DNA of 64,000 bases, from contig OX485804.1 of the NCBI GenBank assembly GCA_950295325.1, forward strand, positions 24,428,001 to 24,492,000, written 5' to 3'. Both the position numbers and the translations under genes were made by a program. The stretch is from Polytrichum commune. Taxonomy: Eukaryota > Streptophyta > Polytrichopsida > Polytrichales > Polytrichaceae. The notes beneath the pieces were generated by a model. It searched no databases. It was not told the DNA's origin and saw only the letters and a list, made by a program, of their open reading frames with translations. Positions 27,401 through 48,252 of this stretch are shown here, in pieces (positions within the stretch are counted from its first letter, which is position 1; each line of letters starts with the position of its first letter).

Positions 27401-29201
27401 GAATGCCATGTGATCCTTCACTATGCATATTCAACCTAAATAACAATTACGTTGCTTCCGTAAATATACCGGCATCTAACTTTTCATTTGTGTCAGTCCC
27501 ACCGGCCGCCCTCAACGACCGATTAACATCATGTTCTTTAATTAGCGTGTCTTCTCGTCATCTTGGCTTATTTAACGAAGACCCTTTGTAAGCTCTAGGG
27601 GAGAAAGTTAGCAACTTCTTTGCTAATGCATATTATTCTTTGTTGAAGTAGGGTTCTTGGCTACATACGGAAGGCTTATGCTGAAGATCATAGAATACAT
27701 GATAATTTTAGCACCGAGACAACCGCCTTCCTACTACAGGGTTGACAACTTACTAACTTACTAACTTAGTAACGACGGTCTAGGAGGCCAATTGTCCAAT
27801 AGGTTAGGTCCATTGATTTTGAAATCAACTCTCCCCTTTGTTGGTTTTACTGCATAACTTTCTTATATGTGGAATGGAATAGGCTGATTGTGCTTAATAA
27901 GTGTTATAAGTTTCTGTTATTTCAACAAAGGTGTAGAAATTGATAAAGATAAAGGGTCATATAGTAGGTAAAGTGGTAGGATATTGTAAGTTGTTCCAAC
28001 CAAAGAGTACTCGAGAGTAAATTTTTTATATATCCTAGTGTTTGAAGTGTCTTCTTTAGCTTGACAACTTCAGTAAATGCAAGGTTAGCACCACACGATT
28101 TTTTACAACTAGGTTTTTCATAGTTTTTTTTAAATAACCCAATCATCTAAGGTTCAACAAAATCCAGTTTTATTCGGTTTTATTACAAATAAGTTGAGAT
28201 TATAGGGCACAAGACCCAATGTCCGCCAATGATGGTGTCGATTGCCAAGTGTTGGAATAAAACCATGATTTTATAAGAAAAAATCGGGTTTTTTTGCATT
28301 AAAACCAAAAACCCAATGCATCGGCTCAAAAAGGTTAGGTTTTTCCCACCCTTGGGTATATGTAGATGGAAATATTCTAGCTGATGTTGTATGTTAGGTC
28401 ACAGTAGGACAGGGTTAGCTATAGAATTGCTCAAACTTTTCTTTTAGTCCTCTGTGTCTTTCTTTAGTGTTCACTTCACAGTAGTTAAACTTTGCGCCCA
28501 AAACTTTAACGTAAGAAGTTGATGATATCGTTTTTTACCTTCGTTCATGTGCACTATGTGTAGCGGTACTCTAGTAACATTAAGTTGAAAGTAATTGTAG
28601 TTGGCATCTAGCAATGTTACACTTGTCATAATTAAACTATGGGTGAAGAGATACATGTTACTTGTAAGTGAATTTAATACTCCACATGGAGTATTGTTAC
28701 TTGATTTTCCTTATGTCCTTATGGCTGGTAAGATGGTACAAAGATGGCATAGTTTTCCAAGCCCTACTCTTAAGCCATTGGTATGAGGTGATCTATGGAA
28801 CACTATATTCGTTAATTGGAAACTTTTGAAAGTCTCAAAATAAAATATGCCCATAGTTTGGGATGCCAATATTGTGGGCATACGGAATATTGGAAACATC
28901 AAGAACATGACGATTTAAAAATTTGTACGTAAAGGATATTCTTATTACTAAAAATAGATAATTTCAATTAAAATGGAAAGTGAGCTCCATGTGGAAAATA
29001 ACAATCCACTCCAAAAAAAACAAATGGTTTATGTCATTATAGAGTTTGGGGTGCGCATCCCATAAGTAAGGCTCTTATGAATTTGGATGGCACATCCTAA
29101 ACGTATACCACAATGGAGTGTGACAAGTCCACTAAGTCTATTAAAAACCAAATCTACTAATCGCCCATGTTTTTCGCCATTAACTCCCACCTATGTTATG
29201 T
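24477..29201. other. Gene-poor stretch
   Basis: No supported gene. 24880-25910 is GC-richer than its surroundings and G-rich on the plus strand; its open frames are short and overlap on both strands. The remainder is AT-rich with scattered short frames. It probably represents decayed transposons. Confidence 0.4.
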
Positions 29202-32200
29202 TTACACATCTCCATCTTCCGCTTCATATCCATTCTCGGCGTCATTTTTTGCCGCTGCAATACGTGCCAAGTTGTCTTTGGCAAAATCTATATGTTTTTG
29301 GGGGATGGTCATTGTTTCTGTTTTGGACCCTTTGCGCGGCTTCCAAGCACAAAGTATAGTATCCGTATTTATCCAAACCGGTGTGTACGCTGAGTCCACA
29401 GTCCACTTAAAATTCTTTTTGGTGTCCCAACCTAAATAAGTGCGTAGCACATTATGGTCTTTAGTGCTTGGACGACAATATTCCACCTCAATTTGACGAA
29501 AATTGGGGCTAGTTCGAACAAAATTGGGTGAAGACAATGCTTTCACCAACCAAATTGGCTTGGGATGCTCCTCATCCCCTGCTCGTACAAGGACCAAATA
29601 ACCTTCATGGCAATCAACACCTACACGAAACGACGGTGCCGGTCGATTGCGGGCAGGGCCAACGTAATGCTCGTCCATTGCGAACTCTTCACGAACGTCT
29701 CCATTGCTAAAAAACATGGTGTCGGACTCGACAACCGTTAAACGGCTTTGTGGTCAAAATCCTTGTGTTAAAGTTGTACGGGTGTCGCCACCAAGTGTCA
29801 TTAGGGCCGAGCGAATGCAATCCCAATACGCAATTAAAGGCTCATGAGTATCTTTAACACGTCTAGTGATGTCTTCCTCACACAACTCTTTCCAATATTC
29901 AATGAATCCGGATATGCCTTTGATGATTTCCGGCCCATTCCTCATGAGATCAGGTTTGCAAGGCTTTGGATCCCCATCCGGAAGCAAACATTTGTCATCA
30001 TTGTCTTGATGCCATACGAATATACCATCATCCGGGCCCCAATTAGGAGATGTGCACAAAAGCTTGAATTGCATGGCTGGGAGACCATCATCCCTTATAT
30101 AGAATCGGAATTGTTGTGCTTTGGTATGCCCCACCAAACGGTCCCCTCCCTTCAACATGTATGACTTGATGAAGGCCTTGAAATTTGGTACTTCCTCAAT
30201 CATGTGCGGAATTACTGGCATATGGTCCAAATCCATATACGATTTCATAAGAAGAGGTATGGTTGGAAAATCTTCTTCATGCAACTTCATGCTCCACCGT
30301 CCGAATGATGCATCAATGTCGTCGTGTGTACGTCCCACCATAAAAAACGACACAAACACCTCCTTGAAGATTCCTTTCGCCACGAGCAATGACCAAAAAC
30401 AAAATACATATCGACATTTGTTGTCTTTCGCGCAATTATCAAGTTGAACGTGAAGAGTTGGAGGCAATGGTTTTGCACAAATAGGTTCTCCCGGTGGTTC
30501 TGGCAATGACGACATACAAACCTCCTTCCCCGCAAGCACTGCTTCGTAAAGGGGTGTCGTTCCACAACCATCAAAAAATGCACGTGATTGTTGCGCACCT
30601 CTCCATGAGGAGTGCCCGAAACACCATGGGCACAAGGGGGACCCCGGAGTGACACCCGGGACTTGTGGCGCCGTTGGTGAGAGGGCCCAAGTGATCCTAG
30701 TGTGGGTGAGGGCCCCGGGCGTTGGGAACGCCTCCCACCCACGGAGACTAGGAGGCATGAGGGTAAGGCCATGAGCTATGCGTAGCTCATGGCGTGGTGA
30801 TTCTAGAATGCTCAAGAACACCTCAATCGGAGGTGTGAGCTAGGAGTTATGGCCATTTGAGTGGCGCGCTGTCCCGGGACAGCGCCCTGCTACAGCAGTG
30901 CCTGGGAGTGATTCCCGGGACTGCCAAGGTTCAAACAGGCATAACTTCCTGACCACTTGCCCGAATGGGGCAAGTGAGGAGTCCATCGGCATGTACGTGA
31001 AGCGTAGATGAAGATGGAGTGGTTGGTTGCTGGAATCAGACATCATACAAGGAAGTTATGATGGTCTGAAGCTGCTGGGGGCTTCTAGGCCCAGCGGCTA
31101 AGGGAAAATGTCCACTTGGCCCCAACTCTTGGTAGAGAGACAAGAGGTTGGTTGACGGTGGGGTAGGGGCCCCGCGTAGAGTCCTAGAGGCTTATATGGG
31201 TGAGGTGGTGTGGCCTCACCCACCCGAGGCCGAACGGCACGGCCTCCATTGGCATTGGCCTAATGTGAGGCCATAGTTGCCTAGTATGGTTCGGGTTGTT
31301 GTAGTGTTGCTTCGGCAACGCGATGATCAACATAAGATTGGACTTCCATGGATGGAAGTCCACATCTAAGGATTGGTTACCAATTAAAGGGGTTGGTTAC
31401 CGATTAAAGGGGTGAGTCCCGAAGTAAAGCAAAGTAGGAGGGTTGGTTCCCCTCCTATGAACTATAAGGTCCGGGGTGAGAGGAGCTAACCATTAGCATG
31501 GCGGTATGCGAAGGGTTAGCGACTCGTAACCTTTGCTAGAATTGCAAATTGGCAAGGTTGTTAAGGGGGCTAGCAAGGGTTGCGACAGTGATGAATGTAA
31601 CGGCGGCTTCTCCAGATCGCGCAAGAGTTTTGCAAATGAACCCACTGTGTGGTTAGCATCGCCAGGGTAAAAATCCAACCCATAATGGGCATACTTTACG
31701 TCTCCATGGCCGTGGGCAATCATCCCTGCGAAAAAAAACAAACGATGCTTGAACAACAACAATAACAACGACAACTCCAAACGGAGGTATGAAATTGGAT
31801 ATTTGGCAAACACACCCAATAAAATTTGAGAGAATTTGAATACATATTTGTGATTCAATACAAACCTGTGATAGATACGGGTAACTTGAAAAGACCATCC
31901 GTGGCCTTTATTTTGCGTGCATAACAAGGGCATGCGGTCTTGGCGTGGTCCATTTTATCATGGATGATTGTTAGAACTTCTGTAGGCCTCATTATGGATA
32001 GAGCACGGTTCTTGTAGTAATCTTGACGGTGAGCCTCTTGGTTGTTGACATGTTCAATATATTTTGCTTGGTGTCTAGTGTGGGATTCGGTACCTATGGG
32101 GTGGGCGTCTCGAAGACCTTTGTATTTTTCACACGTCGTACACCTAGCGAATTTGTCCCCTGGTCTCTTCAAAATGTATTCGGCAAACTGTTGGTTTTTA

Positions 32201-33342
32201 ATCACACTCAACTTGGACAAAGAAATGGGCCCACATCCCGCTATGCGATCCACTTCATTGATGTCCGTTAATATGTTCTTCCATTTTGTACCCGTGGGCA
32301 ACACCATTTGTACAACTTTCTCCCCTGACGACAATGTCCTCGTCTTGTGGGGCATTGCATCGGCCAATGGGACTATGATGGTGGAGAGTGTCGCGGAGGT
32401 TTAGAGTGTAGCCTCCCTAGGTTTCTTTGTACCCGAATTGCCATGAAAACGAGAGCGGCGACCCAACAATGAATATTTTTGAAACCTATAAAAGTCAGAC
32501 TTTGACACGGCGTAGATGGTATACCACGCAGTACAACACACTTCCACATTATCAAGTGTGACCACCTTATGCCCATGGATGTCAATGTGGACATTTCTGT
32601 GGACCTCGAGTTTCTTTGCCGATCTCATACGGAAATCCGCAAGCCACATCTCTTGACGTAGGGACTTAATTTTCTCCCGCGGGAAAAATTGGCAACATTT
32701 CCTCTCGCAACAGTCCTTGGCGGACACAAAACGGATAGATTCGTCTCCCAATATGCGATCCCGTCGACGTTCCTTATCTCCACGAGGCACACGGTTAGAA
32801 TCATATCTGCGTAGGCCTTTGCGAGGACGTATTTTGGCCAACAAAGCTAATTGCGTTTGCTTATGGCGGCGGTCATGATCCAACAAGCTTACTCCGTCAT
32901 GGAGAACCCGACAAAGAGGCCATCGACGCAAGGAAAATCTCCATGTCACCGGGACGTCAAACGGAAGCAAAGAATTCAAGATGCACACACCCACATCATT
33001 GGGACCAAGGGGGTTGGCATCCATACAATCACAGGGATCGGAATTTCTACATATGCCATCTGCCACCGGGACACCAACATCGTTGAAAAGAACAACATCA
33101 AGGCCCACCCATTGCTCCCTACCGAAACCGGCACATAACGGAATGTCATCATTGTCATCCCCGAAACGTATAGATTGTTCGTGCGTTTCAAATGATTCGT
33201 GGGAGGATGAATCCACAAACCCACCCATGGCATTTGCCATGCCATGACTACCCGCCGATGGCGAAGATAGTTCACAGTCACCATCGGAAGAGGAAGCTTT
33301 TGTGGACAACTCCAATGAACTATATCCAATGTGCATCGCCAT
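29202..33342 (-). pseudogene. DUF7869-type transposase-like gene (degenerate)
   Basis: Reads leftwards from ATG 33342 (MAMHIGYSSLELSTKA). The N-terminal half has a Cys/basic stretch (AKDCCERKCCQFFPREKI), then SLLGRRSRFHGNSGTKK. The middle has FARCTTCEKYKGLRDAH and DKMDHAKTACPCYARKI, a Cys/His pattern. An intron 31865-31726 separates SITG from MIAHGHGDVKYAHYGLDF. After removal of a 983-bp insert (30596-31578) the frame continues QQSRAFFDGCGTTPLYEA, LHVQLDNCAKDNK and VGRTHDDIDASFGRWSMKL. These motifs are those I associate with DUF7869 proteins, widespread in non-seed plants; conserved Asp residues suggest an RNase H-like nuclease fold (inference). It ends EAEDGDV at 29202. In-frame TAA at 32401-32403 and TGA at 29754-29756 break it. 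It diverges from the ParB-like gene at 38800, and palindromes cluster just upstream. Confidence 0.75.
30596..31578. mobile_element. 983-bp hairpin-rich insertion, LTR-like
   Basis: It is flanked by GTTGCG at 30590-30595 and 31579-31584. Removing the insert and one repeat restores ...HSSLSQ joined to QSRAFFDGCG in the minus-strand gene, so both ends are certain to about one base. The interior has a TATA-like CTTATATGGG at about 31190 and several strong palindromes: 30769-30792, 30866-30885, 30954-30976 and 31339-31362. A 5-6-bp duplication fits an LTR-type (solo LTR) insertion, but the ends are not TG...CA, so the class stays open. Confidence 0.75.
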
Positions 33343-33482
33343 CCAACCTAAACAAACCACCAATAAATGACCAACACAACAACAACCGCAATACATACAA
33401 AAGCGGATACGAGATATGCCTACATATATGGCTGAAAAATCACAACCAACACTCGCCACACCGTTGCGGGACCTCACATATG

Positions 33483-34792
33483 AAGACGAACGTGCGTTCG
33501 ACAACAGCCCCATGACATGCAAATCCTACACGGGACTCAGACGTCCCTGCACAACGGAACCCCATTCCAATATATATTACCCGTGAAGGGCTTTGGGTGG
33601 AGTCGCCAATAAAACATTGGAAGGATTGTCCACCACCAAGGGACAACACAAACACATATATTCACGAACGCGAGGACGAAAACATCAACCCAATATACAA
33701 TAAAATCTAAATGGGACATATTATAAGAGCACCTAAAATATACTTGCCACTTTATTCACATGCAGTAAGCATCATATTTGAGGGGCGTATATTTGATGGG
33801 CGAGTGTTTACGAACGATCGTTCGTTAGCTACAGCTGAAATGGAGGGCTTATGTACACGAACGATCGTTCGTAAGTTCCAGCCGAAACATAGGGGCGGAT
33901 GCATACGACCGATCATATGTATGTTACAGCCGCGACAGTGTTAGGCAAAAATGATTGGACACGTCCAAATAGAGATATCTATAGCCACGTTACAGGGATA
34001 CATGAAATCCAATATCCAGTGGAAAATGACAATCGACATCTATCACTAAAATCATGATTGAACAGATACGAACGAGCGTTCGTATCTAACATTAACACGG
34101 TGTAGTCCTCTACACATGCTTGTGTCAACAAGTCTGTTGGTGGATGCGTGGACGGTGGATAGGTGGTATTTACGAACGCGCGTTCGTAAAATTGGAAAAC
34201 ATCATTATCCGTGGACATAAATGGTAGTGCGAAATACGAACGAGCGTTCGTATCTATTCTAAACATGGTGTAGTCCTCCACACACGCTTACGTTAACAGG
34301 TCTGTTGGTGGATGTGTGGACGGTGGACAGGTGGTATTTACGAACGTGCGTTCGTAAAATTGGAAAACATAATTCTCCGTGGACATAAATGGTAGTGCGA
34401 AATACAAACGAGCGTTCGTATTTAACTTCCATATTGTGAACGTGGCCAATGCACGGAAGTGTATAAATTAAGGAATATTTATGGATTCTTGAAAAATAAT
34501 CCCAGGTGATATTTACGAACGCACATTCGTAAATATCCCATCATCAGATGTTCCGTTGGAGAAAACGGTTACACGGGAACTCCTGCGCGTCTGGGTCTTG
34601 AAGGTAGATATACGAACGTACGTTCGTATATAATCGACACAATTTTCGTGCCTAGTTCTGTCTATAAGTAACTCAATGTCGAGTACGGTTGTAAACAACT
34701 TACGAACGCACGTTCGTAAACAACTCACATCATATTTATGTACCTCTTGTACATGTGCTACCAACTCACGTTTACGAACGTGCGTTTGTAAA
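33483..34792. promoter_or_regulatory. Palindrome cluster A (upstream of DUF7869 gene)
   Basis: Thirteen 22-bp sites, consensus arm TTTACGAACG, two variable bases, arm CGTTCGTAAA. Starts: 33483 (weaker), 33807, 33854, 33903 (degenerate), 34065, 34169, 34233, 34337, 34401, 34512, 34609, 34699 and 34771. All lie 5' of the minus-strand start at 33342. Outer arm bases vary; ACGAACG and CGTTCGT are nearly constant. They would suit binding of a symmetric protein dimer. Their spread through introns elsewhere suggests the cluster could also lie in a leader intron. Confidence 0.9.
34065..34422. repeat. 168-bp tandem repeat carrying two palindromes per unit
   Basis: Units start at 34065, 34233 and 34401 (the last partial). 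Each full unit holds one palindrome with AG centre and one with TTTACGAACG arms (34169, 34337), separated by the shared text GTGTAGTCCTC and GTGGACGGTGGA. Local duplication therefore multiplied the sites. Confidence 0.9.
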
Positions 34793-36111
34793 CGTCCGGT
34801 ATTTGCGGCGGTATATAAGGGTATGTGCAGTCTGTAGTGGACCTGGGGGGTGTAGGGTTGGCGCACAAGAAAATGGTTTGAGCGCGTTCCAGTCAGGTCT
34901 GTGGAGCGCACACTTGGATGTGCCGCAGAAAAGAGCTCTTCTGTGGGGGGAAGAGCTTTAAGTACCTTCCCCCCAATGGTTCAAAATCCCTTGGATGCTA
35001 TTTAAAAAGTGGATTCCCGCCGCCTACTTTGACCTAACAATATGCCATTCCATTCATGCGCAATATATAAATAGCATTATGTATGGAACATGTCTTGCGT
35101 GCACGCAACATATTGTAAATGTATAAATCCGTCGCACACCTTAGTTGTTACCAAGGTCGCACGAAAATATGTCTATATATCTATATGTCTATATTTATAA
35201 GTCTATATATATGTATAATTTATATTTTACTATTTTATATATGGGTTATTATAATATATATATATAGGTTGATGGGTTAACATTGAGTATTAAATTATTT
35301 GCGACTAAGGTGTGAAGTCCAAGTGAATTGATGAAGGTTTAAGTGATATATATATTCACACACACAATGAGGTAAGAGTGGCTAAGAACATATTGTGGAA
35401 TCCCCTAAAATTGTAGATATCATATGATTCACATAAAAAAAAATGCTTGTAATATGGTCACCAAGTGCATAAATACCAATAAAAAATCGCTTAATCCATA
35501 GTGGCTTGTGCTAGGTAGATTGAGGACATTTGGAAGTGGAGGCTCACCAAACATCGGCCCATATTAATATGACTCATTGTTGCAATTCATCATTGGTGAA
35601 AATTAAAGTTTAATGCACTAGTATTCGATCGTTAGTTCAAGTTGACACCTAATTAAATGACTTGACGTCCTATTGGAAATTCACTTTAGGTCCACCATGG
35701 TGTGGAAATGGATAACTAATTTGGAATGGTGCATACAATAGTATGCACTTACAATTATATATTTGTATTATTTGCAACAAGAAGTATGTGCATGACCATA
35801 GCTTAAACTATTGATTTAAGTTGAAGTCTTAAACCATTCATGTTATAATAAGACTAAGTGTGTATTTTGTGATCAAATTGCACTCAAAACTATTAAGGTG
35901 AAAGGGCTAGCATTTCAAAATTCATTCTTCACCCCCTAAACCAATGTTTTATATCAAAATGACAATTACTGGCATGAGTCTAGATTATTATAGTTGCTAT
36001 GACCCAAATAAGGCAAGTTCCAATCGAACCAACATTCGTAGACCATTTTGACATGATGCGCATAGACCACAACATGGCCATATATAAGAAAGGTTGGTAA
36101 GGTAAAAAAAT

Positions 36112-36185
36112 GTAGGGTTTAGGGTTTGGGGTTAGGGTATAGAGTTTGTGAAAGTTGTCTATGTGGTTTGCGGGCTTAGGGTTTA
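36112..36185. repeat. Telomere-like TTTAGGG patch
   Basis: GTAGGGTTTAGGGTTTGGGG and a further GGGCTTAGGGTTTAG resemble the plant telomere repeat, in short degenerate form only. Confidence 0.55.
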
Positions 36186-36285
36186 GATCGTTACTTCAAT
36201 GCATTATATACACAAACAATATCGACTCCTAAATAATCCATATCGCACTAACTTAATTTATGGGAAGCTCATACTATCAATTATT

Positions 36286-36541
36286 GATACTACTAGCAAA
36301 ACATGCGACCACATGGCTAAAATACACTACACTAAATATCATATTTAGTGTTTGATTGTATAATATAGTGTTGTTACATTATCATGGTCAACACTAAATT
36401 TCAATTCTTTGATACTACTAGCAAAACATGCGACCACATGGCTAAAATACACTACACTAAATATGATATTTAGTGTTTGATTGTATAATATAGTCACTGT
36501 GTTGTTACACTATCATGGTCAACACTAAATTTCAATTCTTT
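36286..36541. repeat. Tandem duplication of 125-131 bp
   Basis: Copy 1 is 36286-36410 and copy 2 is 36411-36541; copy 2 has a 6-bp insertion (CACTGT). Each includes the palindromic ACTAAATATSATATTTAGT. Confidence 0.9.
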
Positions 36542-37188
36542 GATAATTAGTGTTGGACATATTAAATGGGCCACCACATTTCCTACTACCATGTCCTTTA
36601 TGCTTTTATCATTGTTAATTTTTTTTTCATATTAATTTCCTTACACAAAATTTGTGCATGCGACATCCACATATTACCATTATAGTTGAAATTAAGTGTT
36701 TGAGTTCACAATGAATAGTAGTTACTTTCATAGGGTTACTGATATTTAGTGTACTATGCGTTTGTATTTAGAGTATCTAACACTAAATATCATATTAAGG
36801 GTGGTTCAAGCTAACACCTCATTAAATTAATGACATCGTATTGAAAATTGAATTTTCATCCACCTCTTGTGGAGAATCAGATAGCCCCTCTCCACAATTC
36901 AAATTGAGTCATTTATATATGTAATATTTATTTGAGGAACCATTGAAGAACTTTAAAGATGTCTCGTTCATGAAAACGACATTTGCATCTTGGGGGTGGA
37001 TTCTTCATCGAAAACCTACTAAATGACATGAATTGTTAAATACAAATTATCTGAACATACTTTTCTAAAATATGTTTACAAGGAATCCATATGTCGAGGT
37101 ACTAAGGGGATACGGAAAGTTAAATTTATGTCCCTAAACTAAGCTCCTCCCATCTCCTATTTCATTTTTCCTGAACCCTCATCCCTCC

Positions 37189-37280
37189 ATGTCCCCATGG
37201 TATCCCCTCATCCCCATCCCCATTCCCTCCATCCCCTCCATCCCCATCCCCATCCCCATCCCCCTCCCCCATCCCAGCCC
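37189..37280. repeat. CCCCAT-type microsatellite
   Basis: Repeats of CCCCATC and TCCATC units lie just upstream of the presumed leader of the ParB-like gene. Confidence 0.8.
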
Positions 37281-37859
37281 TAGCCAGTGGCCACTAGCCA
37301 CGTGGCTGCCGCTTGGAAACCCTAGCGGCGCCGGCTACCTCCCCGCGCCCCTCTCTCTCCTCCTCATTTGTCATTTGGAGCAGAGGAGGAGAGGAGCTCT
37401 TAGGTGCGGCGAAGCCCTTGCCAATTTTAGAGCCTCATTGTGAATGTTGTTTTGTTGTGTTGTCAGAACCTTGAGAATAGGAAAGCTTGAGAGTAGGAAA
37501 GGTTGAGAGGTTGAGAGTTATAGAAAGGTTGAGAGGTTTAGAGTTTTAGAAAGCTTGAGAGCTTGAGTTTTAGAAAGATTGAGAGGTGGAGAGTTTTAGA
37601 AAGGTTGAGAGCTTGAGAGTTTTGGAAAGCTTGAGAGCTTGAGAGTTTCAGAAAGCTTGAGTTTTCTGAAGCTTGTGAGTTGTGTACATCAGGGTTTGTG
37701 TAGGATTTGCATATAAGTTGTGAAGGCTTGAGAGTGTGACAAAGTGAAATTGCAATTGAAAGCGAATTCAACGCTTTTGAAAGACAATTTGGTGTGCATT
37801 TGTGAGGGTTTCTGGATTTCTCAGTAGGAGGCAGCAGGTTTTCTGTGCAACAATTCAAT
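37281..37859 (+). promoter_or_regulatory. Presumed 5' leader exon of the ParB-like gene
   Basis: A GTGAGT donor follows at 37860 and a TCTGCAG acceptor ends at 38799, exactly before ATG 38800, so this stretch can be a non-coding first exon joined to the ATG by a 940-bp intron. It contains a minisatellite (37466-37675) of units like GAAAGCTTGAGAGCTTGAG. The transcription start is not identified. Confidence 0.45.
37466..37675. repeat. GAAAGCTTGAGAG minisatellite
   Basis: Degenerate 20-30-bp units (AGAAAGGTTGAGAGCTTGAG and variants) are repeated about eight times. Confidence 0.85.
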
Positions 37860-38201
37860 GTGAGTACAGGTTTCCTTTACAAATCACTCCTTCACAATCT
37901 GAAATTGTTGTTTGATGAATTCCTTGTGATTTGTTTTCTGCATTATGAGGTATGGCATGTTTTGTATGAAATAACACTTTCCTCTTCATTCTGAATTATC
38001 AATCACTGACTCGCAATTTTGTTCTGATTCCATTTTTCACTTGTGTTTCATCAATCTGATCACGAGTTGCAGGTTCATGAACAATGCACGATCGCAACAT
38101 TCATACCAACATATATACGCATATATACATATACGTATCCGTATATGTACGGATATATGTATATAAATAAATATACCATTTCCTAATCCCAGATGACCAC
38201 A

Positions 38202-38769
38202 TTTACGAACGTTCGTTCGTAAATGTGGCGTGAATATATGCCTTACCCCACAAACATATACGAACGTGCGTTCGTAAATACGCACCTCACCCTCCATTTT
38301 TACGAACGCACGTTCGTATATTCGTCTATACCCTGTACATCAGACAAATCCTCAAATCAAATTACACATACAAAAATACGAATGAACGTTCGTAATCACA
38401 AACTATAACAATATACCAAACCCTTCATGGTAATTGTTTGCTTTCCCTAGTAGCATAATTTACGAACGCACGTTCGTGAATAAGAACTAAAGTATTAATT
38501 CACCTATTTAGAAGATGCTCATGGAAATTAGAACAATCCTCGTGGAATTTAGATAACCCTGGACAACGCGTAGACTTGTTTAGAAACAATACGAACGCAC
38601 GTTCGTAAACTTGAGCCAAATACACCTTAGCAACCACATTCTTTACAAACGATCGTTCGTAAATGAAATCAGCGAAGACATAATTAAAATTCCTCACGGG
38701 TACCCATAGCCAGCGTTCATTGATTAGTATATATGATTTGCTTGTCAATTACGAACGCTCGTTCGTAAA
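38202..38769. promoter_or_regulatory. Palindrome cluster B (leader intron of ParB-like gene)
   Basis: Eight copies of the 22-bp site start at 38202, 38257, 38299, 38375, 38459, 38588, 38642 and 38748. They end 30 bp before ATG 38800. The first is extended to a 32-bp palindrome (38197-38228) by CCACA/TGTGG flanks. The cluster lies in the putative intron 37860-38799. Confidence 0.92.
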
Positions 38770-40097
38770 CACAATACTAAATGTTTATGTGCTCTGCAGA
38801 TGGCTAGACCGAGCAGGAGCGCCATTGAGATGTTCGCAGTGCAGATAGATCAGCTACCAGAGTCAGTGTCCGACCCCAACGGAAACGATAATTATGTCCC
38901 CAAGGAGGACTTCATTGGGGAATGGACGGCACTGCCAGAGAAGACATCAGACGGTCTTTTCTGTCTTCGCTTCACCTACGAGCTGGAAACGACGCCGGAC
39001 CAGCCAGAGCAATGGGTGCAGATGAAGACTTGGGAAGTAGAATCGATTGAGGCACAAGGAGATTATGTGATTTTAGACATGAAAAATAAGAAGGATCACA
39101 TTAACCTCCTGTTAGAGTACAGGAGACATAGTTTCTCCTACACATACGCAGAAAATAACGTAGTGGTTGATGCCAAACACTTCCTCAAGGACCTCTTCAC
39201 GAAGTACGCCCTGAGCTCGTACTGGACAGCAAGGAAGTTGGCCGCGCTTTCCTTGAATATCTCCAAGTACAATAGCGCGGTCGCCGAAGCCAACAAGAAA
39301 AAGAAGAGCCCACGAAAACCATCCGCATCCGGGGCAGGAGGATCGAGAAGTGCACCCAGGCCGGTGCCTTCCGCGAGCAGGGTGACGGAGGGTCCCAGCC
39401 GACATTCCACACCATCGAAGAGGTCCCGGGACGAAATGGAGAGGTCTGGGGTAACAGAGGGCGCTGAGGTGAGCTCTCCTCCCCTGATGCCAACCCCTTT
39501 AAAGAAGGGTGAGAATCCAGATGCAGTAAAGGCAACAAAGATCCTACGAGACTTCAATAATTACTCGAAGGATTGCTGGCCCATGGGGCGCCACTTCACG
39601 TTCAACGTGGACTGCTTCAAGTGCGAAAAGTCCCCCAACAAGTGGGTGGTAAGACCTCGCGAGAGCGGTGGGGTGAAGTGGCAGATCAACAACCTCATGA
39701 ACAACGTCAAGTGGGATAGGCAGACCGTCTGCGTCATGCCCAAGGGGCTGACATCCCGACCGACAGAGATGGATTGGCCGCGAATCCAGAATGGAGAATT
39801 CTGGATTATAGATGGTCAGCATAGCTTGGAGGCGTCGCAACAAATCCTCAAGGACGACAACTTCCAGCACGAGCTGAAGGCTGACCTGCGGTACTGGAAG
39901 GCGTTCTTGGTCTGGTCGGACGATTGGGACAAGCTGCGCAAGATTTCAACCTTCCTGAACTCGGGGAACAAAATCAAGGCGTTCGAGGCTTTGTGGGCGG
40001 CTAACATAGTGGCTGCGAGAGACGTCTGGGTGGCACACGGATGCCCACCAAAGGAGAGGGAGAACGCCAAGAACCAGTCTCTTCAATGGAAGGTGAG

Positions 40098-40177
40098 TTT
40101 ACGAACGTTCGTTCGTAAAGTGTTGGATTCACGAAAACATCAATTACTGTCTCAATTTACGAACGTGCGTTCGTATT
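40098..40177. promoter_or_regulatory. Palindrome pair C (intron 1)
   Basis: Two copies of the 22-bp site start at 40098 and 40156, inside the 116-bp intron 40093-40208 of the ParB-like gene. The first begins five bases after the splice junction. Confidence 0.92.
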
Positions 40178-41553
40178 ATGTGCAACACTGACATCTTGTT
40201 TTGTGCAGGCATTTTGCGACGCGATGGTAGACAAGTTCTCTTCCATCGATATGAAGTCCACCACCACCAAGCCTGTGCTCGAGCTGAAGGGTGAGCTCAG
40301 ACTGATCTGCTGCAACAGGGACACATGGGACTTGTGGACGCAGTTTTTTGATGCACACAGCTCGGGCGATTTGGTCAATCCCGACACGGAGGAGAAGTAC
40401 AGCACGGAAAAAACCGGTGAAGCGCCCCCACTACTGAGGGAGTTCTTTAGACACCTCCAGGGATTGACGGAGTCAGAGCTGAAGAGGTGTGCGATTCATG
40501 TTCTTGGGAACACCGTGGGAAGAAACCTTCCCTATCCCAAGATCTTTTCGAAGAGGCCAAAGCACAAGCCCGGGACGTACTCTATCAAGGAGTGGTGTGA
40601 CCACCGAAAGCTGAAGACTGCTGCCATGAGAGAGTTGAGCATACTCGTACCAGAGTACAAAATCTTTGAAGTCGACGGCGACATCAACTGGCCGTAATGG
40701 CAATTGTTAAAGGTCGACTACAACATCAACGGAGCCTCCATGCGCAGTCTGGTCAAGGAGCACGCCTCGATTTTGAAGTTGAAGGGGAACAAAAGGACTA
40801 AGAAAACCGACACGGATCCCCATGAGGTAATGCTATACATAAAATTTTTGGAGAGGAAGAGGAACGCCACATTCGAAGGAGTGGCAAGGTTTTGCGTGAT
40901 GACCTCCGGCATGGAGAGGGTCACATTTTCCAAGTGGGACGGCACCATCAGCAGGGCCGAGGTGAGGGAGGATCGACGGGGTTGCCCATTTGCCCTGATC
41001 GATTTCAGGTGGATCCCGGGTGTGTCAAGGCTGGGGGGGAAGGACATTCCCTTCTACAACCCCTTCATGGCCAAGTTCATGGAGTTCAAATCGCCGGCCA
41101 TGAGGGAGCCACACGTTTGGCTGTGGAAGTCGAACAAGAGAAGCTGTCGGTCGTCACAGAGCTGTACGAGCAGAAGATCAAATTCGAGTACAACATCTTC
41201 CACAGCACGTACGTGCCAGCGAAGACGGAGGGGATCGTGGCCATCAACGAGGCCAGGGGCAACAAGCAGGTGGGAGCGGTCAGCTTGATTTTCTTGACGT
41301 ACAATGAGCTTAAGGATGGGCGACCGCCTATCAAGGCAAACAACACGTTCAAGAAAAATCTACAGCATCCCGCATCCCCCTCCCAAGGATCTGCTGCAAG
41401 AGACCCTCTACACCGTCTTCCCCGCCATGGAACTCAGGATGGAGTTCTACGTCTCTGTATTGCAGAATCTGGTTATAAGTGGAGAGACGGTATACAACGT
41501 ATGTGGAGGCTCCAAATTCATGTATGCAGCCATGGTAAGTTGTCCAGACTCCA

Positions 41554-41729
41554 TTTACGAACGCTCGTTTGTAAAGTTAACCAACTTCTCAATGTATTGT
41601 TTCACAGTCGCTGCACGTGACGCATTCATGTTTACGAACGCTCGTTTGTAAACATAACCCCCTTCGTAATGTAATGCTTGAACATCGTTGCTCGCTACGC
41701 TTTGATGTTTACGAACGTGCGTTCGTATT
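41554..41729. promoter_or_regulatory. Palindrome triplet D (intron), 77-bp spacing
   Basis: Three sites start at 41554, 41631 and 41708, each exactly 77 bp after the last, within the intron about 41536-41757. The first two have a CGTTTGTAAA right arm. Confidence 0.92.
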
Positions 41730-42743
41730 TTCTGACCTTATTGCTCTCTTCTCACAGATGATGGGTCTCGTAGTCAACACATTCGTTGACGCTATCGGCG
41801 AAGAAGACTTCAAGATCCACCGTGCGAAGGCGTCGACGATGGACCTCAAGGACATCTTTGTCCCCAGGATGGACTTCAGTATGCCCGCCGACGAGGGCAT
41901 ACCATTCCACGATTCAGAGGACGACGAGCCCGCCCCCTCCGCCAACGTGGACGCCATTCTGCAGTCCTTCGACGTACCCCCACTTCGGATCTTGCCGCCA
42001 ACGACGGATCTTCCCGACCCTCAAGGGACGCCGGGTGGTTATACCGGGTCGTCCGCGGGGACAACCCTGGACGTCCTCCCCGCGAGAACATCTCTTGCGG
42101 AGCCTTTCGGAACGCCAGGCGGATGCTCGACGTCACAGTCTCCAAGGCCCGCCGTGGTTCCGAAGATGGAAACCCTGGACATCCTCGACCAACGCTCGTG
42201 GCCATCTTTGGACCTCTTCCGCAACACGAGGAGGAGGATGAAGAAGACTCCCTATGTGGAGTTGCCGCTGGGAGCAATTATCGAGGTCTCGGACGAGGAC
42301 GAGGGGGACATGGACATCATGGCCGAGCTTGGCGTGGACTACGACAAGAACAAGCGGGTGAAGGAGGAGGCACTCACCGTCGCTGAGCTCAACGCCAAGC
42401 TAGAGGTGAAGATGAAGGAGGAGATGGCTGCAGCATAGGAGGAGAGCGCCAAGCATCTGGCCAGGCTGCAAGAGCAGCTGAGGGATTCAGCGGCCAAAAC
42501 CGACGCCATCTTCGAGATGCTCAGAAACATGCAGAGCTTCTCTGCGCCGGTCCAGCAACCTTACCCCTTCCCCCCTGGAGGATACCCCTCACAGCCCCCA
42601 CCTCCAGTCATGTACCAAGGAGGGCGTTCCCACCAAACAGCGCCACACCCAACGCCGGTGGGAAGTCCATTGCCCCCGGAAGTGACGGCGGCCGCCTCAA
42701 CCTCCCACGATGCAATCACGGCGGCGCTAAGGGAGGACGAAGA

Positions 42744-43217
42744 TTTACGAACGCGCGTTCGTGAATCTTCAGGTCCGGCAGTCCTCACCCCTCCCCCTTC
42801 AAGGGTAGGACTGCGCACAGACACCGACACGGCCTCTTTCACCGTCGTCCCAAGGGTTCTAGATAGGCGGGGCGATGACACTGCGCAACACACTGACATG
42901 GTCATTGTGGAGGAAACGCAGGGGAGCCCCAATGACTCGGCAGGTCCGCATGGGATGGTCGTGGAGAGCCCTGACCAGGAACGACATCCATCTGCGCACA
43001 TGGAGGATGTCCGCATGGAGAGACTTGACCTGAGCGGGGACGACGACGACGACGTGGAGCTCATCCAACAAACCCAGTTGTCTCAGGAGGAGCGTCCAGC
43101 GGAGGTCATGGAAGCAGAGGTTGCTGCCCCAATGGATATTACGAACGCGCGTTCGTTAATCAAAGAGGTAACTCATCTCTGAGAATGCCAAATGTTTTAC
43201 GAACGCGCGTTCGTAAC
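42744..43217. promoter_or_regulatory. Palindrome group E (exon and exon end)
   Basis: Sites start at 42744, 43138 and 43196. The first is part of a 32-bp palindrome (42739-42770, GAAGAT/ATCTTC flanks) and the first two lie in open frame (reading LRTRVR and ITNARSL). The third lies after the GTAACT donor. Confidence 0.9.
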
Positions 43218-43507
43218 ATCACTAACCCCCGCGTTGTGTTCTTGGCGCTTCAACTCCATCGACATCACGTTGCCCACGCGAGCATTTTTCTACATGATCG
43301 CTTGGGCCGACCAATTTTGTAGGACACTGCATTTTTTCCTTAGGAAATTGTGATAGATTATCACGCGAGACAAATGTACATATTCACCGAATTAATATAT
43401 GAGCAGACGATCTCTGCTCGCATCCCCTCAACTTATTGCATATTATTCTCGCGTCTTGTGTTGTCTGTGTTGTTGCGCGTCCTTGCATTCTTTGCATACA
43501 CACCTCA

Positions 43508-43660
43508 CTCACGAACGCTTGTTCGTAAAACTGTGCGACCCCGTCTCGACCTCCTTCGCGAACGAGCGTTCGTATATGTACGCATCCGCGCTCACGAACG
43601 AGCGTTCGTAAATGATGCGCACCGCCCCGCAGCCTTCATTGATGAACGGTCGTTCGCAAT
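43508..43660. promoter_or_regulatory. Palindrome group F (before the FCP1 exon)
   Basis: Four sites start at 43508, 43555, 43591 and 43639, inside the putative intron 43165-43792. Their outer arms are more diverged (for example TTCGCGAACG, TTGATGAACG), while the GAACG/CGTTCG core is kept. Confidence 0.85.
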
Positions 43661-43792
43661 TGTGCCCTTGTGAACATTTTCCTTGCACCCTCCTCACTTC
43701 CTCCTCTTTTCCCATAATGCATCGTCTTTATTTTCAACGCAACAATTTCTTTATTGGATCATAGAATTAAACTAGTCGCGTTGTTCATCACA

Positions 43793-44561
43793 GGACCCCC
43801 CAGAGATAGGTCGCAACCCCTCCACCAGTGGACCTCGAACCCGGAACAAACCGTTCCTCGTTTTTGACCTCAACGGGGTGTTGTGTCACACCCAACACAT
43901 CCCAAGGGTCCCCACGCGTCCCTTCCGTCACCCCGACGAAAGGGACTACGACGGCGAGCTCGACACCCTCATTAACCGCAAGGCTGTCCGCGCCCGTCCC
44001 GGCCTGCGGGACTTCCTTCGCAAGGTGGTCGAGTTCGCCCACGTCGTTGTGTGGAGCTCCATGGTCATGGAGAACACGGAGCCCATCGTCCACTTCTTGT
44101 TCCGTGATCTCCCGAGCCCTTGCCTCGTCCTCGGCCAAGAGGACTGCGACGAGCTGCTCGACGAGAAAGGCCGACCGGTGCCCAAGTTTGGCGGTCGAGG
44201 TGGAGGACAACAGTTCCTCAAGGTCCTCCGTTCAAGACTCTGGCAAGGCGTCCCCCGTCTGCAGGGGACGCCCCATGGGTGGTGGCCGACTCCTGAGAAC
44301 ACCCTCCTCATCGACGACAACCCCACCAAGAGCGTCTTGAACCCCCCGGGCAACGCCATCTTCCCGGACACTTGGACCGGCGATAGGCAAGACACATTTT
44401 TGGTCGATAGGCTAGCCCCCTACCTTAGAAGGCTCGTGCTCCACGCCGGTAGCATCCCATTTTTTGTTAGGTCCAACCCCTTCGGCAATGCGGCGCTAAG
44501 TCCCCGCGATAATGTATATAAGAGCATCATGAGGCTCGCCAAACTCAATAAATTGATTTGA
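43793..44561 (+). CDS. FCP1/NIF-like phosphatase-domain exon(s)
   Basis: This exon begins after TTCATCACAG and reads DPPEIGRNPSTSG, then KPFLVFDLNGVLCHTQ (about codons 19-34), VVVWSSMVMENTEPIVHFL, LVLGQEDCDELL, NTLLIDDNPTKSVL and TFLVDRLAPYLRRLV, ending KLNKLI at 44561. These are the HAD-type FCP1/SCP blocks: the nucleophile Asp of DxDxT is present but the second Asp is Asn (DLNGV), so activity may be altered. Active relatives dephosphorylate proteins such as the RNA polymerase II C-terminal tail. Its phase (0) matches the end of the ParB-like exon at 43164, so the two may be one gene. Alternatively it has its own start upstream. A GTATAT donor at 44514 could instead splice to 44674, replacing the last 16 codons. 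A near-identical truncated copy is at 11764. Confidence 0.8.
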
Positions 44562-44673
44562 AATTCCTCCATGTCTTTGCTTGTTATCATGTGGTTCACA
44601 TATCTAATGCTTGCTCTGTTTTTGGATGTCTGTTTTTGTTTTTTGTTGTTATTGTTGTTGTTCTTGCCCATAG

Positions 44674-47600
44674 TCTGCCCCCATATGCGATGCCCCTGTA
44701 GTCGATGGCCCTTCCCGTCCCCTCTCGCCCCCGGCATCCCCTTCCCGCGACGTCACGGACTTCCAAATGCCATCCCTCTACCACTTCTCGGCGGTCGACG
44801 CGGCATCGGCCGTGGATTACTCCCGCGACGTGGGCATCGACGACGGCGTCGTCAACAGCCCGCCCCCAGCACTTGTCACCCGCGCGTACGCCCCGTCGCC
44901 CTCCCCCCTCTCCAAGGAGAAACGGACGCTCGTTCGTTTGGGGCACCTCTCGCCCTCTAAGGACGACGCCGTCGCTCGTCGCGGGCCGAGCCGGCGTCTC
45001 CGCATGGAAGGCCCCCGTTGCCACACCTCCCCCGCCGACTCCGTTCCTCCCCCCGCAACGTCCTCCGCTATCGTGGGCCCTCCACGCCTCGACTCCCCCC
45101 CGCCATCCAACAGTGCAATATTTCCATCGGCTCCGGATGCTCCCGTCGACACCCCCCTTGTTCCCACCGTTCCCCGCATGGACGTCCCCAAAGCCAAGGT
45201 GCCCTCCTGTAATGACAATTTCTGAATTTTTTTTGAGCAAAACAATGTGTAAGTGAGAAACATGTTGTTTTAAGGCTTCAAAAGTAGAGAGAAGTATGTG
45301 TGAACAGGGCTATGGTCTGGCAGTTTAGAAAAGTAACCGCCAGCAGCTCCTGACCTGCTTCGAAGAAGCTTCAGAAGGATACACAGTCTATTGTCTGGTA
45401 GAAGAAGGCAAGTTTTTTTTGGGTGAATATAGACTTTGATAGTAGTGCAGTGAGATTCAGGCTGGGAGAGCCGACAGGATGATAGAGAATTCTCTGTGCT
45501 AGGTTGATTTGTAGTGATACAGATTAATTCCCTACCAGAAATTGTTTTGATTATACTGTGAGGTGAATTTATCCTATTCCAGGGGGCTTGTACTGGAGCA
45601 GGCTTGGAACTTTTGAGAAACTGTGTTTATTTCTGGATTACCAATGTTATGTGGGGCAATCATAAATATAGTTTACTGTTATGTGTAATTGCAATTCTGT
45701 TTCCAAATTATTGTATTGTGACTATGAGTGTTTATATGTATATGTTTTAGATCATAAGCGTTGCATGAGGCAGAGTCCTTGGTAGGGAGAGTTGAAGTAA
45801 TCCAGCCCGGGTGAAATGCATATATTTGAACTTGATCGTAATATCTCTAATGAAGTTGAACTGGTGATAATTGTTGTGTGATTGGATTGGCTGGTTACTA
45901 CATAACTTGATATTTTCCAGTGAGTGGTTTATATAGATTAAAGGCTATGGACTCAACTGGATTTGTTTCATACTTATCAGATATATGCTGAGGTGGGCTG
46001 AAATATCGAGCAATTATGGTCTGAGTCTATGCATGAAGTCTGTGAGGATTTTACCATAGGTTATTTTCTAATTCTATTATGAAGAGCAATCGTTAATCGG
46101 GTGAAGGTTTTTATTGGCAATTGTCTGGGTGTATCAAGGAGGAAAGAAACTGCTCGGATTTACATCATAGCTAGATGGCTTCATTCTTGGGAGTCCATAG
46201 ACTGGAAATATTGAGGGGTGAATTACCTACTTGGTTGACCTACTCGAGAACCTAGAGGTATCGGAAAGTAGAAATTTGGAGTTACTTTGGTGTGTTGTAG
46301 GTAATCACAGACAATTGACTGCCCTGATACAGTAAATTCTTGTACTGGGGGAATGTTTTCGGATGAGTCATTCTCTCAACCCATTAAGCCTCAGTGAGTA
46401 ATGTGCTAATTTTATATTAATCTAATACGATGCCAATAAAAGGAATGCGCCTCGTATTATTTAGTTCAATCTTTTGAGAGTACAGTTAGGGGACAAAATA
46501 GTGAAATATGTAGTTGCAGATAGTTATAGGATTGAACCAATGACAAAGGCTATTGTCCTTGCTCTGTAAATGGAGAAACTGTTCTCTACTAGCCTTTCAG
46601 AAAGGATGGAACGTGAAAGAAAAGAGGCTATGGTCTGTGGATGATTACATAATCGGACGTAGGAGATTCCTAATCATGATTCGTACGACACAGGTATGTT
46701 TTGATGGCTAATTGTGTCATTAATTGAATTCAGAGATCTTCGTGAAATCATTACTTTATTAATTGAATGTTTTAACTTCATTTTGGGGAAGATAATATAA
46801 TAATGAATTGATTACCTTAACGAGCATGTGGTCTTGGTCTATTGTTTCGAGGAAATACGCTATGGTTATGTTGGCCAAGACCCGGTAAAGCCTATGGTCG
46901 GACAGTATAACCTAAAATGAAATGATTAATTAAGGAGTTTCGACAATCCCGCAGGGATGACTGCACCGCCCATTTCAAGTTCAATTAAAAGGGATTAATT
47001 AAATGCCAGCTTATGGACAATATCAAAGTGCCCTTGACTTTGATAAGCCAAACTAAATGGGTTACCTTTTGCAAATGACTATAGTCGATGGCGAGCCCTA
47101 TGTTTTTGCACCGCACTTGGTCCAATTAAAATGAACTCACTGCCAGACAATTGCCTGGGAAATTAGAGTGAGAAGAGAGACTGTCACTTTTGCATGCACT
47201 GTGATGGAGTGATCTTTTAGATGTTTTTATCCCCTGCCCGTAAACTAATTGACACACCTAAATGGAAATGAAGTGTTATAGCCTTGTGTTTTACCTAACA
47301 AACCTTGTCTAAGACACCTAGATGATATAAGAATCACCTTTTAAGTCTTCCCTGATTGTTTCCCTGGTTTTGTTTGTAACCAAAAAGCTAACTACACCTC
47401 CTCAACCCTAAACCCCTTTCGCGCTTTTGCTTCCCTTGTCTTTCGTTTGCGTGCCGTTCTCTTTACGAGCGCCCATCCCAAACCGCCCTCATTATTTTCC
47501 CCACTCCATTCCTATTCTTATCTTCCTATGACGTTGTTTCGCAGGTGGCTACCCGCTCGCTTGGTGCCCGGCCCTCCTCCACGTCCTCCTTGGATAGGCA

Positions 47601-47865
47601 CGCCCTCAAGGCCGCATCTTCCGAGTCTGATCGTTGTCTGGCCCTCCGGAGAAGCGCAAGACGTTCCCTTTCGCAAACGCCCTCGTATTCTACTTATAAT
47701 ACCACCTCGTACAATTCGGGAGCGCGTCCTGAAACATGCAAGAACAACACATATTCCTGTCCAGGCAACACACAAGGATACAGTCGTGGGCCTGAGATTT
47801 TTAGAGCCATGAAGGCCGCCAAAAACAAGGACTTAGCCGCAAAAAAAAATAGTGGATCGGACTAG
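44674..47865 (+). CDS. Proline-rich, basic tail exons following the FCP1 domain
   Basis: Exon 44674-45198 follows a T-rich tract and acceptor (TTGCCCATAG). It reads SAPICDAPVVDGPSRPLSPP, VDYSRDVGIDDGVVNSPPP, LSKEKRTLVRLGHLSPSKDD, and ends PKAK with donor GTGCCC. The final exon 47545-47865 follows TTTCGCAG and reads VATRSLGARPSSTSSLD, CLALRRSARRSLSQTPS, and ends AAKKNSGSD. All junctions are phase 0, matching the paralogue at 12196-13188. The product is low-complexity (Pro, Ser, Asp/Arg), with no domain recognised. It may be the C-terminal part of the FCP1-like protein or a separate gene. The intron 45199-47544 carries a 2.19-kb solo LTR. Confidence 0.55.
44920..44939. promoter_or_regulatory. 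Degenerate copy of the 22-bp palindrome
   Basis: AAACGGACG, CT, CGTTCGTTT; the same site as at 12449 in the truncated copy. One arm mismatch and short arms, so it may be coincidental. Confidence 0.3.
45208..47396. mobile_element. Solo LTR, 2189 bp, in an intron
   Basis: Starts TGTAATGACA and ends CTAACTACA (TG...CA, with TGTA/TACA inverted ends). It is flanked by the 5-bp direct repeat CCTCC (45203-45207 and 47397-47401). The paralogous intron at 12732-12736 has a single CCTCC and no insert, giving the pre-insertion site. No internal retrotransposon coding region is seen, so it is best explained as one LTR left by recombination. It lies inside an intron (donor 45199, acceptor 47544), so it need not break the protein. 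Confidence 0.85.
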
Positions 47866-48252
47866 TGTGACTAGAAGCGTACTAGTGGGACGGACTCCCT
47901 AAATGGGCTTAGGTGTAGAACATATTTAAGTGCTTACTTTCTATGCTATTCCAAGTTACTCAAGACATTGATGGTATTTCCATTATAATTGTATTTCAAT
48001 CCCAATTAATTCATTCAACTTCCATTCATTCTTCGCATCTTCCCTTCCATTCATAACGAGTTGTCATTTCATACGCAACTATTTTCATGTATGCCTCACA
48101 TTTTGTTCACTTCCATGCCTTTATGTATAATAATAGTAGCATACCATTATACATATGGGATTTTTAGTCCTCATTACTGGTCCAATTTTGAAATGTGCAT
48201 CCTTATATAGTCTCATAATCAACAAAAAGTCTCCAAATACCGAATATAGTGT
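47866..48252. other. 3' flank shared with the truncated copy
   Basis: Continues alignable with 13189-13602 (for example GGACGGACTCCCTAAATG and AGTCTCATAATCAACAAAAA) and stops abruptly after GAATATAGTGTT. This marks the right edge of the duplicated unit. Confidence 0.75.

Follow-up and report, generated by a model that had tools for sequence, protein, structure and literature searches.

A 22-bp palindrome arrayed around and inside the genes of a multi-copy DUF7869 transposon of Polytrichum commune

Introduction

Why would about 32 copies of one 22-bp palindrome crowd into some 10 kb of Polytrichum commune DNA? The cluster came to light in a sequence-only reading of a 64-kb stretch of assembly GCA_950295325.1 (contig OX485804.1, positions 24,428,001 to 24,492,000; below, the window, with positions counted from its first letter), which took such density around one gene pair to mean that a protein-binding site had been selected or amplified and that this was no simple satellite. 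We report that the sites belong to a mobile element of about 19 kb, present in many copies, that carries around 30 palindromes around and inside its own genes: a gene with a DUF7869 domain, whose product is probably the transposase, and a second gene on the opposite strand.

Results

A dense array of one palindrome

The site consists of two fixed arms around a 2-bp centre, with the core ACGAACG-NN-CGTTCGT; across the window copy of the element and two others, called B and C, its commonest letters are TTTACGAACG-NN-CGTTCGTAAA, the outer three bases being less conserved. At up to two mismatches, ACGAACGNNCGTTCGT matches the window 35 times, against a mean of 0.08 and a maximum of 1 per window in 100 shuffles, and 32 of the 35 matches lie at 33486-43657. 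Both the count of about 32 over some 10 kb and the comparison with shuffled sequence that the sequence-only reading had proposed are thereby borne out. The weaker copy that it saw at 33483 is present, with one mismatch. Eleven of the 12 copies that it placed at 33807-34792 are within two mismatches, whereas the twelfth, a degenerate copy near 33905 that is the third copy of repeat family D7, exceeds this limit. Its claim that the 64 kb hold no good copy elsewhere was nearly right, the exceptions being the one-mismatch variant ACGGACGCTCGTTCGT at 12451 and 44922 and a site with two mismatches at 58446.

Among the 35 window sites the arms hardly vary at any position, and the centre takes 11 different dinucleotides. 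Spacing along the element is irregular, and local tandem duplication has multiplied some sites (a 168-bp pair at 34066-34401 and a 77-bp pair at 41554-41707). At the site at 40101 the centre reads AA in 24 of 28 copies, TT in three and TC in one. AA read from the other strand gives TT, and the interior of the palindrome looks as though it had been flipped; the site at 41711, with TG in the window and CA in copy B, shows a similar change. Beyond this genome, the 22-mer had no match in IMG/VR and two single copies in prokaryote genomes, which we read as chance; no RNA family reached its gathering score in the window, and among the 20 titles listed (of 67 papers) by a literature search for the letters of the motif, none was on such a motif.

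The array lies within a multi-copy DNA transposon

Comparison of copies added two points to the first reading: the gene pair and the 32 sites sit within one multi-copy mobile element, and most downstream sites are intronic. Copies fetched through either gene share a left end at 28799 when aligned, and reading of the ends put the right end at 48253 and showed inverted repeats, AACACTATATTCG. Thirteen copies, including those of the window and B, were read at both ends (L086, a right end without a partner, was left out). Ten have a perfect 4-bp duplication (atct, acat, atgt four times, taag, aaat, ttat and atgg), one agrees at three of four bases and two mismatch. Searches with the ends gave 579 and 710 first-look candidates, the best 40 of which were scored in each; copies therefore likely number in the hundreds, which is not an exact count. 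The 32 sites keep at least 4.7 kb from the left end and at least 4.6 kb from the right, the 44922 variant lying 3.3 kb from the right end.

Genome-wide, we searched 408 Mb that include seven large contigs of 42-78 Mb, the window lying on the chromosome-size contig C2. A search of the assembly for the core, proposed by the sequence-only reading, gave a strong excess: counted per strand at up to two mismatches, there are 10,372 matches against 2,213 for the reversed pattern, and the exact 22-mer TTTACGAACGNNCGTTCGTAAA occurs 2,909 times against 0 for the reversed control. Among the matches listed, exact 22-mers form seven groups within the first 2.54 Mb of contig C1, two of which hold a single exact copy (2286450, with further 16-mer sites nearby, and 2485595). 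Judged from these listed matches, concentration of the 22-mer in the element is well supported.

On C2, exon 1 of the window copy's second gene was found three times at 100% protein identity (24367779, 24421807 and 24466737, the third being the window copy), on one strand and at distances of 54 and 45 kb. These repeats probably reflect a segmental tandem duplication extending into the window; aligned to window DNA, L010 is 100% and L009 95% identical. A fragment of a related element, its right part with the same inverted end, lies at 11764-13587, is 88-93% identical and carries the 12451 variant.

Palindrome arms are conserved against their flanks

Copy B (C5:44632501-44651500) represents another subfamily, about 86% identical in exon 1 protein. 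Between it and the window copy, the arms are identical at 117 of 120 positions over introns 1 and 2 and exon 3 of the second gene, against 71-76% of the other columns (39/40 against 129/181 in intron 1, 39/40 against 153/209 in intron 2 and 39/40 against 1015/1341 in exon 3; the other columns of introns 1 and 2 take in some adjoining exon). Both exon 3 sites, which stand in different reading frames, are kept in the other subfamily. The 2-bp centre changes at some sites, and one of the three intron 2 sites in the window copy is missing from B, where 20 columns are gapped. With the sites masked, cluster 1, upstream of the DUF7869 gene, shows no flank similarity between the two copies (best E 0.03), yet sites remain, 11 against 9, and the block just beyond the cluster still aligns at 86.5%; in cluster 2, upstream of the second gene, masking leaves some similarity (best E 1.6e-7).

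The same contrast holds within the subfamily of the window copy, for which 28 copies were compared (30 loci, minus the window-copy duplicates L010 and L011 and minus L012, whose start was not found, plus the window). Differences amount to 95/4609 in arms (2.06%), 744/18643 in intron flanks (3.99%) and 2164/73156 in exons; at CpG the figures are 81/2632 in the palindrome (3.08%), 52/857 in introns (6.07%) and 383/7943 in exons. The lower CpG loss in sites than in introns could reflect methylation protection or selection acting on the site. When 12 sites were placed at random in intron flanks, no placement out of 2,000 was as conserved as the observed sites.

Since the arms are kept while their flanks diverge and the spacing is irregular, the sites fit a selected, predicted protein-binding site and not a simple satellite, as first proposed. 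The flanks of cluster 1, which cannot be aligned between subfamilies, point the same way; some sites stem from tandem duplication. Selection and local amplification are both at work on the sites.

In copies that lack a site, gap breakpoints vary, lying inside the arms in L014/L030, L038 and L015 and outside them in L021. The palindrome as a mobile unit was rejected because the breakpoints vary and no gap resembles a precise excision. In the alignment over 38285-38700, the arm-internal deletion breaks of L014, L030, L038 and L015 suggest hairpin-prone replication.

Arrays persist in derivatives without the transposase gene

The element at C1:639-648 kb has lost the DUF7869 gene between its left-end part and its 5' region. 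L001-L008 and L091 together hold 21 sites at up to two mismatches, the genome-wide list having more between them, and the spacing is quite different, with steps of 33-34 bp and of 110 bp. As to the second gene, the one copy examined gave no match to exons 1-3 in L091, 2.8 kb between the fetched pieces of C1:639-648 kb lying outside the reading. This derivative is mobile: of 40 dispersed places scored (the best of 361 candidates), 38 match a 301-bp stretch across the deletion junction at 97-100% identity, in full or one base short. A 300-bp stretch of a four-site array, 1.2 to 1.3 kb from the junction, accompanies it, complete or incomplete, at 37 of these 38 (partial at C3:41766694, over 167 bases, and C7:26397556, over 277). 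Arrays thus persist in copies without the transposase gene.

Genes of the element and a candidate binder

Gene models, built from sequence reading and copy comparison without transcripts, place 30 of the 32 palindromes in non-coding DNA and two in an exon (Table 1). Cluster 2 falls within a possible intron of the 5' untranslated region (UTR; GTGAGT at 37860, CAG/ATG at 38800), the acceptor string of which is found at 29 of 30 loci and in copy B, and the donor string at 23 of 30 loci and not in copy B.

Table 1. Features of the element in the window copy (UTR, untranslated region; ORF, open reading frame)
Feature	Position	Strand	Basis or remark
Whole DNA transposon	28799..48253, 19,455 bp		inverted ends AACACTATATTCG...CGAATATAGTGTT; copy alignment (left), end reading (both)
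4-bp target-site duplication ATGG	left 28795..28798, right 48254-48257		end reading
DUF7869 gene, probable transposase	29202..33525	-	PF25273 E=6.5e-34 at window:29754-30839
Single palindrome, 1 mismatch	33483..33504		5' side of DUF7869 gene; in open frame, upstream of likely start
Cluster 1: 11 palindromes and one very degenerate at about 33905	33807..34792		upstream of DUF7869 gene; core positions 33810-34789
Cluster 2: 8 palindromes	38202..38769		just upstream of second-gene ATG; core positions 38205-38766
Second gene, exon 1 (431 aa), with DGQHR-like segment WIIDGQHSLEAS	38800..40092	+	open frame, copy comparison
2 palindromes, intron 1 (40093-40208)	40098..40177		cores 40101/40159
Second gene, exon 2	40209..41534	+	three in-frame stops in window copy; open in copy B and 14 other loci
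3 palindromes, intron 2 (41535-41757)	41554..41729		cores 41557/41634/41711
Second gene, exon 3, with two palindromes	41758..43167	+	frames; sites kept in other subfamily
2 palindromes in exon 3	cores 42747, 43141		read in two different frames
5 palindromes, intron 3 (about 43168-43793)	43196..43660		cores 43199, 43511-43657
Likely exon 4 or downstream gene, NIF/FCP1-type phosphatase-like domain	43794..44561	+	PF03031 E=2e-16; open, in phase in other subfamily
Variant palindrome ACGGACGCTCGTTCGT, 1 mismatch	44922..44937		in downstream ORF; same variant at B 15344 and window 12451

The DUF7869 protein is probably the transposase, since its gene lies between the ends of an element of high copy number. 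On a copy of the other subfamily PF25273 matches at E=4.1e-40, and a Pfam search of this gene gave nothing but DUF7869 above cut-off and no Mutator-like transposase match. The domain is absent from the open-access literature searched and from all 14 control prokaryote genomes. An insertion of about 1 kb (about 30590-31588), absent from aligned relatives, interrupts the gene in the window copy; no second copy of it was seen within the window. The second gene is large and divergent from the first, on the plus strand. Both genes are broken in the window copy. In copy B the second gene runs through three exons (432, 442 and 478 codons), followed by what is likely a fourth that carries the NIF phosphatase-like domain, all in phase and open. 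Active NIF/FCP1-type phosphatases carry DxDx(T/V); because DLNGV stands in its place at 43794-44561, this domain may be inactive.

We consider the product of the second gene to be the best candidate for a protein that binds the palindromes. Its exon 1 contains IIDGQHSLEASQ, IIDGQHS is found in all 13 copies compared, and IIDGQHSL is the DGQHR signature save for its last residue (S, not R). In the accessible part of the source, the family signature comprises DGQHR (or DGQQR), a QR pair and FxxxN, and GmrSD_N is placed in the same superfamily (PMC4619093); in exon 1 the QR pair reads RQ and FxxxN is not exact (STFLNSGNK). TIGR03187 (DGQHR) was the sole NCBIfam family matched by 13 of 13 copies (C-terminal 192 aa), with a best E of 0.0092 that falls below the curated cut-off; its best stretch covers the signature in nine of the ten copies shown singly and a later segment in the tenth. 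This similarity makes a ParB-superfamily link of the second protein a lead, which gains weight because, in the accessible passages on a giant Ectocarpus transposon, an accessory gene with a ParB-like domain is suggested to bind its own transposon (PMC12477816).

Other searches with the second protein returned REase_II from PADLOC in 9 of 13 copies (best E 0.028) and weak unnamed matches from PHROGs (best E 0.0046); phage and PDB searches with either of exons 1 and 2, and a plasmid search with exon 1, gave nothing useful. Neither DUF1985 nor DUF287, the domains of VANC proteins, was matched by exons 1-4 of copy B at E<=10 or by the window copy at E<=1. A genome search with this protein scored the best 88 of 1,091 candidates and reaches no remote families. 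To the eye, exon 2 ends in what resembles a degenerate methyltransferase motif I, SGETVYNVCGGSKFMYAAM, a candidate that we dropped after the control comparisons described below.

Other repeats in the window and the genome

Other repeats of this genome seem to carry methyltransferase-like genes: L092 (C1:9661151-9663350) and its relatives contain a repeated 577-aa ORF that matches N6_N4_Mtase (E 1.1e-7) and is full-length and open at three places, and at least 41 shorter ORFs, mostly of about 150 aa, are 34-37% identical to the last part of the L092 ORF. In the window, two arrays of about 30-bp tandem units (16773-17174 and 18216-18522), about 1 kb apart and with units like mutual reverse complements, are possibly subterminal arrays of another element. 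Matches to Transposase_21 (5999-6766, E 1.4e-9) and DUF4218 (8126-8755, E 1.2e-32) may be what is left of a CACTA-type element. A TTTAGGG-like stretch of plant type lies near 36118.

Discussion

What are the palindromes for? We give an even chance to the explanation that they are the element's self-recognition sites, bound in trans to anti-silencing or activating effect, with the second-gene product as the likeliest binder. Fixed arms, a free centre and redundancy argue for a symmetric DNA-binding protein: an element-encoded homodimer, or a protein otherwise of two-fold symmetry, would grip both arms and ignore the 2-bp centre. Some 30 redundant sites, placed upstream of both genes and scattered over the introns of the second, would label copies of the element as its own, whether or not they code for protein. 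The label would serve a single local effect, most likely to protect an open gene region from host silencing or to activate the two divergent genes. That the element uses a ParB-superfamily protein and about 30 parS-like palindromes as a self-label, the protein loading, spreading and shielding or activating all copies of the family including non-coding derivatives, is a possibility, if a doubtful one.

Several observations weigh against self-recognition by the second-gene product. Conservation contrasts least in intron 3, where 89 of 100 arm positions agree between the window and B against 409 of 510 other columns, and the random-placement result, like the copy counts, treats related copies as independent. 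A restriction of the sites to the element would rest on the matches listed, fewer than the 2,909 in total and no full census, and retention of arrays without the transposase gene could be passive if the derivative spread recently. On the side of the binder, TIGR03187 scores far below its curated cut-off (best 15.8 against 58.85 bits), and the whole exon 1 of the window had no NCBIfam match at E<=5. GmrSD_N (PF03235) appears in one of 13 copies at E=0.055, with 14 bits against a cut-off of 33.2, and unrelated Pfam families score alike in single copies (Ribonuc_L-PSP 0.056 and PSDC 0.079; Vac_ImportDeg 0.12 in two). AlphaFold models of exon 1 (mean predicted local distance difference test score 34.9, 14 rows) and exon 2 (32.7, 12 rows) are both unusable. 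The three subfamilies read share one motif and hence offer no co-variation of protein and site to compare.

Other explanations have to be set against the same observations. In CACTA/En-Spm elements, TnpA binds many short subterminal repeats, and the DUF7869 transposase might likewise bind the palindromes to assemble the ends for transposition. Dense sites, kept in transposase-deleted derivatives that need mobilisation in trans, would suit such a role, and the two systems would share many short repeats for an element protein (its binding here being predicted). We hold it unlikely: the sites are internal rather than subterminal, none of the 32 coming nearer than 4.7 kb to the left end or 4.6 kb to the right (the 44922 variant keeps 3.3 kb), and they cluster around gene starts and in introns instead. 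A host transcription factor, for which sites would have accumulated as enhancers of the element's two genes, could account for their position upstream of both genes and in introns and for a redundancy that tolerates loss of single sites. It accounts poorly for about 30 sites in one element family, and exact 22-mers are grouped rather than scattered among the matches listed (part of the 2,909), though single sites may also lie at host genes, so this too has a small probability in our judgement.

It is quite improbable that the sites are marks for a methyltransferase-like element protein, with ParB and N4/N6 methyltransferase parts, that modifies its own DNA. A similar layout in Ectocarpus Sola1-1 (accessible passages of PMC12477816) and the N6_N4_Mtase-like ORFs on other repeats of the same genome speak for it, but profile searches of exons 2-3 in the window copy and copy B found no N4/N6 methyltransferase domain, and compared with the N6_N4_Mtase ORF of L092, neither exon 2 (BLASTP) nor exon 2 with 120 aa of exon 3 (hhalign) scored better than shuffled or unrelated controls. 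A functionless by-product, in which replication slippage or tandem duplication multiplied a hairpin-forming sequence, would explain the sites within tandem duplications, the deletions that break inside palindromes and the 33-34 bp spacing of arrays in the derivative. Conservation of the arms against their flanks within and between subfamilies, the exon included, arms that are fixed while the centre varies, and confinement of the sites to part of the element make neutrality very unlikely.

The preferred explanation, self-recognition in trans, is of an already known kind, in which a transposon protein recognises its own short repeated motif. In the accessible passages on VANDAL transposons, an element-specific short motif is repeated in introns and upstream of the transposase gene, a second protein with anti-silencing activity, VANC, recognises it, and the arrays change fast by gain and loss of tandem repeats (PMC5735166, PMC10398659). 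By analogy, the element would work like VANDAL/VANC without being a member. The likeness to VANC arrays comes from sites upstream of genes and in introns, from arrays in non-coding DNA that change fast between relatives around a constant motif and from their retention in transposase-less copies. Membership fails because the transposase and VANC domains differ: DUF7869 stands in place of the VANDAL (Mutator-like) transposase, and neither DUF1985 nor DUF287 is matched. A 22-bp two-fold palindrome also contrasts with the YAGTATTAY given for VANDAL in those passages; here the duplication is of 4 bp, some sites are exonic and anti-silencing is something that we infer.

Bacterial ParB-parS systems have a palindromic site in several copies. 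The several palindromic sites and the closeness of IIDGQHSL to the DGQHR signature recall them and the DGQHR-GmrSD_N proteins, from which the element differs by a profile match below cut-off, the lack of a known parS sequence, its eukaryotic host and its introns. Sola2 ends start with GRG, whereas those of this element start with AACAC. AT-rich 4-bp target duplications and short inverted ends, in the accessible part of PMC3627910, are the features shared with Sola2, a likeness that concerns ends and duplication. Sola1-1_Ec32 of Ectocarpus, as its accessible passages describe it, is a giant transposon whose opposite-strand accessory gene, with ParB-like and N4/N6-methyltransferase domains, is suggested to bind and modify its own transposon (PMC12477816). 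Both are giant DNA transposons with an accessory gene on the strand opposite the transposase and a ParB-superfamily signature, but here that match lies below cut-off, no methyltransferase domain was found, and there is an array of predicted binding sites, of which those passages make no mention for Sola1-1_Ec32. The open-access literature searched (titles, abstract starts and passages) gave no description of the palindromic site, of a DUF7869 element or of a ParB-type binder with a site array.

To our knowledge, it is mainly for Arabidopsis VANDALs that there is a detailed picture of how a transposon discriminates self from host and evades silencing while leaving the host unharmed. If self-recognition is right, the P. 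commune element would add an independent example of much greater size, one with another transposase, a clean symmetric site and natural site copies by the thousand. It would also supply a concrete candidate target site, which the accessible passages on the algal ParB-type transposon protein do not give (PMC12477816), and 20 specified bases in about 30 copies per element would make it a possible sequence-specific epigenome tool. Should the ParB link hold as well, a bacterial-style partition clamp would have been turned into an anti-silencing device of a transposon.

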